Assembly: GCA_016200005.1 (NCBI GenBank)
Contig: JACQFP010000033.1
Coordinates: 1 to 64,000 of the forward strand
DNA from: Verrucomicrobiota bacterium
Lineage (GTDB): Bacteria > Verrucomicrobiota > Verrucomicrobiia > Limisphaerales > PALSA-1396
DNA length: 64,000 bases
Direction of reading: 5' to 3'
A program made the translations under genes and the position numbers. Shown here piece after piece: positions 49,370-53,698 of this stretch; position 1 is the stretch's first letter; each line of letters begins with the position of its first letter. The notes under the pieces are model-generated. The model was given only the letters and a program-made list of their open reading frames with translations, was not told the DNA's origin and did not search any database.

Positions 49370-51793
49370 ATGAAACGACCACTCGTAATGGTGGCGTTGC
49401 TTTACAGTGGCGGCCTGTTGCTGGCCGACTTTTTACAGGTGCCACTGGTGGGACTAATTGTTGTCACGCTCAGTCTCGCCGTGGGCGCATTGTTGTGGGC
49501 CAAGGCGCGCTCCGTGCTCCTCGGCCTCCTTGTCCTCCTGGCGGGTTGGACCAATCTCACACTTCGCACCGCGATTATTTCGCCAATTGATTTGCGCGTG
49601 GTGGTCGGTGAGCGGACCGAATTCATCACACTCCGGGGCGCGCTGAGCGAAACGCCCTACCAGCGTGTTTACGAACACCACGACCAAGAACCATCGTGGC
49701 GCACGATGTCACTGGTGGATGTCAGTGAACTGCGGTTCCAAAAACAAATCTGGCGACCCACTTTTGGTGGCGTCGCCATCAGCACGCCGGGAATTCTTTC
49801 CTCCAACTTCTTCGCCGGACAAACCGTGGAAGTCACCGGCATTCTCCGCGCGCCGAAAGGTGCCGTGGCGGATGGGCTTTTCGATTACCGAACTTATCTG
49901 CGCCGCCAGGGAATTTATTACCAGTTACAGGTTGCCTCGCTGAGAGACTGGGAAATTGTTTCCTCCACCAACGCGCCGCCATCACCGCCCATTTCGGATC
50001 GTTTTTTCGTCTGGGCCAAGAGAACGCTCGCGCTAGGCTTGCCGGTGGAAGATGAACCGCTTCGTTTGCTCTGGGCGATGACACTCGGCTGGAAGACTGC
50101 GCTCACGAACGAAGTCAACGAACCGTTCATGCGCTCCGGCACGATGCACATTTTTGCGATCAGTGGACTGCACATCGCGTTGATAGCCGGCATCCTTGTC
50201 GCGGTGCTGCGGGTGCTGCAAGTGCCGCGCGCCGTTTGCGGCTTGGTGGTGATCCCGCTGATCTGGTTTTACACCGGCGTTACGGGCTGGCAGGCGTCGG
50301 CGATTCGCTCCACCGTCATGATGACGATCATCATTGCCGGCTGGTCGCTCAAACGCCCCAGTGATCTGCTGAATTCGCTGGCCGCCGCCGCGTTCATCAT
50401 TTTGATCTGGGACCCGCAGCAACTTTTTCAAGCCAGCTTTCAACTTTCCTTTTTTGTCGTGTTGAGCCTGGCGCTGTTCGTGCCGGTGCTGGAAAAGATC
50501 CGCAAACGATGGCTGCAATCCGATCCCTTGTTGCCCGGCGAATTGCGTCCCCGCTGGCAACGCTGGCTCAACGTGCCGATCTATTATGTCACCGCCGGTC
50601 TGACCACTTCACTGGCGGCGTGGTTGGGATCGATTCCTTTGATCGCTTACTACTTTCATCTGTTCACGCCGGTTAGTTTGCTCGCCAACTTGATTGTCGT
50701 GCCGCTGAGCAGTCTCGCCTTGATGAGCAATCTTGCCAGCCTCATCGTCGGTGGTTGGTTTCCCGCCTGCGCTGAATTGTTCAACCACAGCGCCTGGTTT
50801 TGGATGCTGTTGATGCTGCGCGTCAGCGAATGGGCGGCGAACCTGCCGGGCGGTTGCGTTTATATCGCCGCGCCTTCGGCCATCGGTTTCATCTTCTACT
50901 ACGCGCTGCTCGTCAGCCTGATGGGCGGCTGGCTCAAGCGGCCGCGCTGGCGGGTCTGGGTCGCGGCTGGACTGGCATTGCTCGGTGTCGCCTGGTTGTC
51001 CCATTGGCAACAAGAACGAACGACCACACGCCTGACGATTCTTCCGTTGAACGGTGGCCACGCGGTTTACTTCGACGCACCCGGCCACAAGAATGATCTG
51101 CTGGTAGATTGCGGAAACACGAACGCGGCCCAATTCATCGTGAAGCCATTTCTGCGCGCGCAAGGCGTGAACCGGTTGAACCGACTGCTGCTCACTCACG
51201 GCGACCTGCGGCAGGTGGGCGGAGCGGAACTGGTTGGCGACGCTTTTTCAGTGAAACAAATCGCCACCAGTCCCATCCAATTCCGCTCGCCGACCTACCG
51301 AAATATTTTGGAACGGTTGGAACGCAATCCTGAAAAACGGCAACACGTCGCCCGTGACGACCGAATCGGCCCGTGGACCATACTGCATCCGAAGTCGGAC
51401 GACCATTTTCCACAGGCAGACGACAGTTCGGTGGTGTTGTCCGGCAATATTCAAGGCACGCGCATTCTGCTGCTCTCGGATTTGGGGCGGCCGGGTCAGG
51501 AAGTTTTGCTGGAACGCACGCCGGAGTTGCGTGCCGACATCGTGGTCACGGGCCTGCCGACCGGCAGCGAACCAATCAGCGACGCATTGCTCGATGTTGT
51601 TCAACCGCGAGTGATTGTCATTACCGACTCGGAATTTCCCGCCACGCGTCGCGCGAACGAGAAGTTGCGGGAACGTTTGGCGAAAAGAAATGCGCAAGTG
51701 ATTTACACGCGCACGAGCGGAGCGGTCACATTTTTCCTTCGTGCGAACCATTGGGAATTGAAGCCGATGAGCGGAGATCGGTTGCTAAAGTAA
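49370..51793 (+). CDS. comEC: ComEC/Rec2-type DNA uptake channel
   Basis: 807 residues in the order DUF4131 (to about 190), the Competence membrane domain with about ten helices (FAISGLHIALIAG at about 260, DPQQLFQASFQLSFFVVLSLAL at about 345) and a C-terminal metallo-beta-lactamase-like domain from about 560. In that last domain the metal motif normally read as THPDADH is THGDLRQVGG, so the metal ligands after the first His are altered. ComEC passes single-stranded DNA through the inner membrane. The stop codon lies in the end of a MITE-like element. Confidence 0.9.
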   Translation: MKRPLVMVALLYSGGLLLADFLQVPLVGLIVVTLSLAVGALLWAKARSVLLGLLVLLAGWTNLTLRTAIISPIDLRVVVGERTEFITLRGALSETPYQRVYEHHDQEPSWRTMSLVDVSELRFQKQIWRPTFGGVAISTPGILSSNFFAGQTVEVTGILRAPKGAVADGLFDYRTYLRRQGIYYQLQVASLRDWEIVSSTNAPPSPPISDRFFVWAKRTLALGLPVEDEPLRLLWAMTLGWKTALTNEVNEPFMRSGTMHIFAISGLHIALIAGILVAVLRVLQVPRAVCGLVVIPLIWFYTGVTGWQASAIRSTVMMTIIIAGWSLKRPSDLLNSLAAAAFIILIWDPQQLFQASFQLSFFVVLSLALFVPVLEKIRKRWLQSDPLLPGELRPRWQRWLNVPIYYVTAGLTTSLAAWLGSIPLIAYYFHLFTPVSLLANLIVVPLSSLALMSNLASLIVGGWFPACAELFNHSAWFWMLLMLRVSEWAANLPGGCVYIAAPSAIGFIFYYALLVSLMGGWLKRPRWRVWVAAGLALLGVAWLSHWQQERTTTRLTILPLNGGHAVYFDAPGHKNDLLVDCGNTNAAQFIVKPFLRAQGVNRLNRLLLTHGDLRQVGGAELVGDAFSVKQIATSPIQFRSPTYRNILERLERNPEKRQHVARDDRIGPWTILHPKSDDHFPQADDSSVVLSGNIQGTRILLLSDLGRPGQEVLLERTPELRADIVVTGLPTGSEPISDALLDVVQPRVIVITDSEFPATRRANEKLRERLAKRNAQVIYTRTSGAVTFFLRANHWELKPMSGDRLLK

Positions 51794-52269: not shown

Positions 52270-52617
52270 TCAGCGGCCCTTGACCACGATGACCGACACG
52301 TAGCGAGCTTTGGGAATGACGAACTTCTTCAACTCCACGGAAACGGTTTGCGGTTTGAACTCCTTCAGAATCATTTCGGCCATCGCCGTTGCCAGCGTCT
52401 CAATCAGTTTCCAACTCCTCCCTTCGCCGAAATGAAGCAACCGATTCGCGACCGCGTGATAGTCAATGGTGCTCCACAAGTCATCCCGGGTCGCCGCCGC
52501 CGAGAAATCATGCCCCATCTCCACTGTCACGAGCAAACGCTGGGGTTGCGCGCGTTCCGCGTCCGGCACGCCGACACGCGAAAATATTTCCAGTTCGGAG
52601 ATCGTGATCTTATCCAT
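52270..52617 (-). CDS. folB: Dihydroneopterin aldolase
   Basis: This 115-residue protein matches FolB length and pattern: DKITISELEIFSRVGVPDAER at the N-terminus (active-site Glu region), the TIDYHAVANRLLHF helix and SWKLIETLATAMAEMIL, then VSVELKKFVIP with the catalytic Lys region. FolB cleaves 7,8-dihydroneopterin to 6-hydroxymethyl-dihydropterin in folate synthesis. Its start overlaps the end of the HAD-Nudix gene by 8 bp, so the two are translationally coupled. Confidence 0.93.
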   Translation of the reverse strand: MDKITISELEIFSRVGVPDAERAQPQRLLVTVEMGHDFSAAATRDDLWSTIDYHAVANRLLHFGEGRSWKLIETLATAMAEMILKEFKPQTVSVELKKFVIPKARYVSVIVVKGR

Positions 52618-53698
52618 TCCGTTTCTCCTGCCGTCCTCTGTTTAGCACCACCTCCAACAGGGCGCGCGTCGGTTGGTTGATCGGCATCGCCAGCGCTTGC
52701 GGCAGAGTCACCCAGCGAAATTCGCGCGCTTCCTCGTTCAATTTGACCTGCGGTTCGCCCACGCAACGCGCAGTGTAATTGAGCAGAACAAAATGCGCGT
52801 CCCGATAAAATTCCTTCGAGTTGATGCAATCCTGAACCATCACGAACTCAATTCCGGTCATGTCCAGATCGGTTTCCTCCTTGATTTCGCGACGCAAGGC
52901 GGCAACTGAACCCTCGCCGCGCTTGATTTTCCCGCCGGGAATGCCCCAGAGGTTCGACCACTTGTGCGTGCGGATCATCAGGACTTCATCGGCGTCATTA
53001 AAAATCAATGCCCCGACGGTGACGACGGGCGCGCCGTTCATTTCGGCGGAATTTGAGCCTGGTTTCAAATGCAGTTCGTTTCGCTCCAGAATCTCACGCA
53101 ACTCGCGCAGATGTTCCACGATCAAATCCGGCGCGGCGGCGCGCAATTGTTCGAGGCTGTTGTAGCCGGTCAGCACTGCGCAGGAGTGAACGCCACCGTG
53201 TCTGGCGGTTTCGATGTCATGCTGCATGTCGCCGATGAAGATCGTCTCCTCCGGGTGCAAATTATTTTCCGCCAGAAGCTCGTGAATCTTCGCGCGCTTG
53301 TCCCAGACTTCAATGTAAGGTCGCTCCAGATATTCTCCGAAGCCAGTTGTCACCTGCTGCGCCTGAAAATGGTCGCGGTGGACGGTGCTCAATAAAAAGG
53401 TTCGCAATCCGCGCGCGCGGCAAAACTCCAGAAACTCGCGCGCGTGCGGCAGTTCGACCACGGAATCGTGCACCTCTTTGAACCGGCTGTGAAACCAGGT
53501 CTCCAGTTGCGGCAACGGAATGTGCGGGACGTAACGTTCGTAAAACCGGGTGAATGGCAGGCAAAACTCGGCGCGAAATTGTTCCAGCGTCATTTCCTCC
53601 CGCTCCGCCTGGCTCAACACGTAATTGGTCGCCTGCCAGACGGCGGGCAAATCGTCCACCAGTGTGCCCGACCAATCGAAGATGACGTTGCGAATCAC
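52610..53698 (-). CDS. HAD phosphatase-Nudix hydrolase fusion
   Basis: This 362-residue protein joins two enzymes. Residues 1-210 are a HAD phosphatase of the phosphoglycolate-phosphatase type: nucleophile DWSGTLVDD (D8), FLLSTVHRDHF, and ETIFIGDMQHDIETAR with the acidic motif. Note that the second Asp of the usual DxD is replaced by Ser (DWS). Residues 225-355 are a Nudix domain with the box GGKIKRGEGSVAALRREIKE, matching Gx5Ex7REUxEE. It overlaps folB, so a role in dephosphorylating dihydroneopterin triphosphate is attractive (see findings). Confidence 0.88.
   Translation of the reverse strand: MIRNVIFDWSGTLVDDLPAVWQATNYVLSQAEREEMTLEQFRAEFCLPFTRFYERYVPHIPLPQLETWFHSRFKEVHDSVVELPHAREFLEFCRARGLRTFLLSTVHRDHFQAQQVTTGFGEYLERPYIEVWDKRAKIHELLAENNLHPEETIFIGDMQHDIETARHGGVHSCAVLTGYNSLEQLRAAAPDLIVEHLRELREILERNELHLKPGSNSAEMNGAPVVTVGALIFNDADEVLMIRTHKWSNLWGIPGGKIKRGEGSVAALRREIKEETDLDMTGIEFVMVQDCINSKEFYRDAHFVLLNYTARCVGEPQVKLNEEAREFRWVTLPQALAMPINQPTRALLEVVLNRGRQEKRNG

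Follow-up and report, generated by a model that had tools for sequence, protein, structure and literature searches.

On the minus strand of the window (the whole 64,000-nucleotide stretch of Verrucomicrobiota DNA analysed here), the open reading frame listing places at 52610..53698 (stop codon included) a gene for a 362-residue protein in which an N-terminal HAD domain is fused to a C-terminal Nudix domain. The gene begins with GTG, a start that agrees with the relatives, whose N-termini read (M/V)IRN. Its last 8 bp (52610..52617, minus strand) overlap folB (52270..52617, minus strand; open reading frame listing), which encodes a dihydroneopterin aldolase of 115 residues recognised by Pfam (PF02152, E 6e-25) and by the NCBIfam equivalog TIGR00525 (74.1 bits against a cut-off of 72.15). 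The 8-bp overlap described in the initial annotation is thus borne out by the reading frame coordinates and the Pfam domains. The HAD domain occupies residues 1-207 (53078..53698, minus strand), as delimited by Pfam (HAD_2 at residues 5-175, E 9e-19), conservation, an AlphaFold model and comparison with the PDB. A linker (residues 208-222; 53033..53077, minus strand), with pLDDT values below 50 at residues 215-220, leads to the Nudix domain (residues 223-348; 52655..53032, minus strand), which is defined by conservation and by Pfam (NUDIX at residues 225-345, E 5e-22; PF00293, 78.7 bits against a cut-off of 21.1). The AlphaFold2 model of the fusion (mean pLDDT 93, pTM 0.81) shows two well-formed domains joined by a linker that is flexible at 215-220. 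Among the NCBIfam models shown, no equivalog cut-off is passed by the fusion protein.

The pairing of the HAD-Nudix gene with folB is no local accident, for the order recurs across relatives. A search with the fusion protein found a match, mostly to the whole fusion, in 56 of the 58 genomes of the same order, some of the weak matches being other HAD or Nudix proteins. At 51 of the 53 evaluable loci of the order, folB is either fused to the HAD gene or encoded no more than 500 bp away in the same direction, and at none of the 53 is it on the opposite strand. Where the two genes are separate and adjacent (n = 50), 34 pairs are 20 bp or less apart and 14 overlap; the overlap is the identical 8 bp in 6/50 and 8/70 adjacent pairs from two sets of relatives. 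Among named GTDB loci (Limisphaerales/Pedosphaera and relatives), 70 of 78 carry folB on the same strand, at 500 bp or less or fused; since the genomes are related, these locus counts are not independent. Background synteny was rejected as the cause of the pairing: at the 39 loci with full flanks, folB is kept in 36 and a comEC-like gene in 21, while argS, the gene upstream of the fusion in the window and used as a control, is found in none. Gene order in relatives, a check named in the initial annotation, therefore speaks strongly for the link. The comEC-like gene lies at 49370-51793 in the window, and it is likewise close to folB at those 21 loci.

On a wider scale, a search with a profile of the HAD domain found strong orthologues (E <1e-60) in 44 of the 289 genomes of the phylum, the query included, all in one class, and FolB is present in all 44. 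In a Methylacidiphilum-like family (f60) and a few others, the HAD gene and folB are not linked, and Opitutales-like relatives have FolB without a HAD orthologue. Seven folB loci from genomes devoid of the HAD gene were inspected: in five (L234, L235, L237, L238 and L240), genes assigned by eye as folP and folK are near folB, and neither arrangement is seen in L236 and L239. The last of these (G292, family f64) has relatives that carry the HAD gene beside folB. A second, Nudix-free HAD copy occurs away from folB at L051 (G045:C95:44655-45281), in a genome that also has a HAD-Nudix gene with folB 225 bp downstream.

The link between the HAD gene and folB takes forms beyond those foreseen in the initial annotation. 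In one genus (g59), and in a second genus of the same family (g98), the HAD domain runs in frame into FolB, giving Pfam-confirmed proteins of 325-333 residues. The first genus is Akkermansia: a 506-residue M60 peptidase of one of its genomes (G081) is nearly identical to PDB entry 7sci, which we take to be Amuc_0627 of A. muciniphila. For two larger M60 peptidases from Akkermansia-like genomes, comparison with the PDB yielded no match usable for naming. Because several of the Akkermansia genomes are single contigs, the HAD-FolB fusion is not an artefact of assembly. In addition, one draft genome (G031, locus L047) from the order to which the window belongs encodes HAD, Nudix and FolB domains in a single 500-residue frame, a triple fusion that needs confirmation. 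Four metagenome bins labelled Akkermansia muciniphila (loci L113, L135, L138 and L165) carry a HAD-Nudix gene, about 70% identical to that of the window, and a separate folB; these bins are probably misnamed, true Akkermansia having the HAD-FolB fusion.

In a tree of 91 HAD domains, for which the bootstrap had not settled and support values are rough, the architectures are mixed, and HAD-Nudix genes with folB are found to either side of the midpoint split. The state of a HAD domain alone with folB accounts for eight changes on the tree, at least six of them forced by well-supported branches, and fusion to FolB, the triple fusion included, for three. The most economical reading starts from an old HAD-Nudix/folB unit, whose Nudix domain was lost repeatedly and which became fused to FolB more than once. 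Several lineages with HAD and folB lack the Nudix domain and have no clear replacement. Since the HAD-FolB link was kept through the repeated losses of Nudix, HAD is the constant partner and Nudix the variable part.

The rest of the pathway was surveyed in 26 genomes. FolK is present in all of them and FolE2 in 25, the copy of the window's genome lying at G000:C78:85420-86169. Canonical FolE (PF01227) was found only in G298 and was rejected as the first enzyme of the other 25 genomes, where FolE2 takes its place. A GTP cyclohydrolase I, from which the initial annotation started, is thus present, but it belongs to the FolE2 (type IB) family, and no canonical FolE was found in the genome of the window. 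Given FolE2, and in line with the background on this bacterial enzyme (PMC1971073), the starting product would be expected to be dihydroneopterin triphosphate. No NudB scores above its family cut-off in any of the 26 genomes, which have only sub-threshold Nudix matches. A Nudix gene beside FolE2 or FolK was also sought in genomes with the HAD domain only; one case was found and judged unconvincing, a NudH/RppH-like frame directly 3' of folK (L176:2014-2592) in a genome (G245) whose HAD lacks Nudix.

These arrangements suggest that the fusion may be a bifunctional supplier for FolB, a reading, drawn from sequence and gene context, to which we assign a probability of about 0.58. The product of FolE2 would be 7,8-dihydroneopterin triphosphate, which the Nudix domain at the C-terminus, if this is its substrate, would cleave to the monophosphate and pyrophosphate. 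From the monophosphate, its presumed substrate, the HAD domain at the N-terminus would take off the last phosphate by way of an aspartyl-phosphate on D8, and FolB, made from the overlapping gene, would convert dihydroneopterin into 6-hydroxymethyl-dihydropterin and glycolaldehyde. Possibly, intermediates are channelled between the enzymes. Gene context makes the HAD role probable and favours the Nudix role less firmly, though still on the positive side; the two assessments are not independent of each other.

The enzymes known for the triphosphate step, FolQ of Lactococcus lactis and NudB of E. coli, are Nudix enzymes (PMC1971073, PMC5389931) that have the fold and the Nudix box in common with the domain described here. 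Moreover, the gene for FolQ lies beside folate genes (PMC1971073), as the HAD-Nudix gene does. Unlike the fusion, FolQ and NudB stand alone, without a HAD domain, and by the NudB equivalog (NF006961) the Nudix domain is not NudB (28.3 bits against a cut-off of 103). Other enzymes that are candidates for this step, or have been tested in it, are FolQ2 of the HD family (PMC1971073) and the Lreu_1276 family (PMC13257207, citing Kachi 2024); the first belongs to an unrelated family and the second is described as a third one. In the fusion, G256, E262, R270, E271, E274 and E275 of the Nudix box are near invariant, and outside it the motifs THKWS, QD, EFY and HFxLLNY are strongly conserved. The structural matches of this half are NudI and MutT-like enzymes, and its sequence carries nothing that singles out dihydroneopterin triphosphate. 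As activity on this compound is scattered over the Nudix tree (PMC5389931), sequence alone cannot settle the substrate.

The proposal that the Nudix domain cuts the triphosphate thus gains from its place in the same polypeptide as the HAD domain and is weakened by its several losses while HAD-folB remains and by the want of a NudB-level score. One alternative is a different division of labour, in which the HAD domain is a dedicated monophosphate phosphatase, the Nudix domain is a general nucleotide cleaner (of 8-oxo-dGTP or similar) and another protein cuts the triphosphate. The retention of HAD-folB after Nudix loss, the Akkermansia HAD-FolB fusions, which lack Nudix, and a NudB score no better than the NudI or MutT scores all agree with this alternative. 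However, most lineages carry the Nudix domain in a fusion that appears to be ancient, and it forms part of one HAD-Nudix-FolB protein; its conserved motifs outside the box are what would be expected of one fixed substrate; and the pathway needs a step that cuts the triphosphate. We regard a general-cleaner role as unlikely.

Removal of the last phosphate of dihydroneopterin monophosphate has been ascribed to a "non-specific phosphatase" (PMC1971073, PMC6451014). The conserved order of the HAD gene and folB, together with the fusions to FolB, makes the HAD domain a strong candidate for this phosphatase. Across alignments that include sequences down to 42% identity, D8, the nucleophile, is invariant, as are S104, K134, D157 and D161 of motifs II-IV and H160, and D16 is kept in all but one sequence. 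The Asp nucleophile and motifs II, III and IV of the HAD phosphatases are therefore present; the acid/base Asp two residues past the nucleophile is absent from all orthologues examined. Motif I reads DW[S/C]GT instead of the usual DxDGT, position 10 being Ser at 54 and Cys at 2 of the 56 aligned loci, and all further loci from the class-wide search have DWSGT. Since the acid/base Asp is missing, the mechanism or the substrate of the domain may be unusual. This Asp is also missing in P-type ATPases, where the position is Thr, and in phosphonatase (phosphonoacetaldehyde hydrolase), where it is Ala. With a poor leaving group, a phosphatase that lacks this Asp should require some other acid, for which H160 or D16 would be candidates. 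The assignment of the HAD domain as the last phosphatase is accordingly strong in gene order and qualified by the lack of the standard acid/base Asp, on which the initial annotation was silent.

In fold, the HAD half is closest to Gph-like phosphatases (2ah5, Z 25.8, 1.9 Å over 204 residues); with Gph and related enzymes (2ah5, 3mc1 and 2hsz) it shares the whole HAD fold and the helical cap at Z 24-26. At about 20% identity it differs from them in the Ser/Cys that replaces the acid/base Asp and in lying beside FolB or being fused to it. Phosphonoacetaldehyde hydrolase also shares the HAD fold (Z 21.4) and a motif I without the second Asp, whereas the domain described here lacks the conserved cap Lys of that enzyme and scores 26 bits against the 220 of its equivalog (TIGR01422). 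Phosphonatase-type Schiff-base chemistry was rejected, the aligned caps having no invariant Lys. These likenesses bear on a second, improbable alternative, in which FolB would cleave dihydroneopterin monophosphate directly and the HAD domain would dispose of the glycolaldehyde phosphate released. The closeness of phosphoglycolate-phosphatase-like folds and of an enzyme acting on a similar small aldehyde, and the motif without Asp at +2, as in phosphonatase, are in its favour. Against it, there is no cap Lys for a Schiff base; the conserved cap aromatics F45, F52, Y53, W68 and F73 would accommodate a pterin more readily than a substrate of two carbons; and the active-site residues of FolB (E21, Y53, E73 and K98), invariant also in the HAD-FolB fusions, are those of ordinary dihydroneopterin aldolases.

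The replacement of the acid/base Asp by Ser or Cys in every orthologue could also mean that the HAD domain is catalytically weak or inactive and serves as a structural partner of FolB; we consider this very improbable, since invariance of D8, S104, K134, D157 and D161 would be unexpected of an inactive domain. Least credible of all is an ordinary phosphoglycolate phosphatase-like enzyme with no folate role, paired with folB by inherited neighbourhood: general HAD models and folds are indeed the best matches, but the scores are far below the Gph cut-offs (54/225 bits for NF009695 and 53/180 bits for TIGR01449), other neighbours have been reshuffled (argS 0/39) and fusion to FolB has been repeated.

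Returning to the role in folate synthesis, we put at about even odds the broader view that these HAD proteins are dedicated to dephosphorylating dihydroneopterin monophosphate, do so without the customary acid/base Asp and, in some species, form one chain with the pyrophosphatase and the aldolase, uniting three consecutive reactions of the pathway. A conserved HAD protein, fused to FolB in several lineages, offers a named candidate gene for removal of the last phosphate, and a putative phosphate-removing enzyme is encoded beside FolB, or fused to it, across the large class to which Akkermansia, a gut microbe, belongs. If the assignment is true, the active site would be unusual for a HAD phosphatase, and one bifunctional protein would supply the two steps missing between GTP cyclohydrolase I and FolB. 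The part of the literature covered here gave no paper naming a dedicated HAD phosphatase or HAD/Nudix-FolB fusions, and one may have been published outside it. The assignment can be tested in an organism that is in culture, either Akkermansia muciniphila itself or a species very near to it.

FolB has a different fusion partner in the Methylacidiphilum-like family (f60). In one of its genomes (G323), a circularly permuted YpsA (SLOG) domain is joined to FolB in a single protein (L233:2093-3046, minus strand), and in other genomes of the family FolB lies within frames of 307-327 residues. The unlinked HAD gene of G323 and its family is itself close to a LOG-type (Lysine_decarbox) gene.
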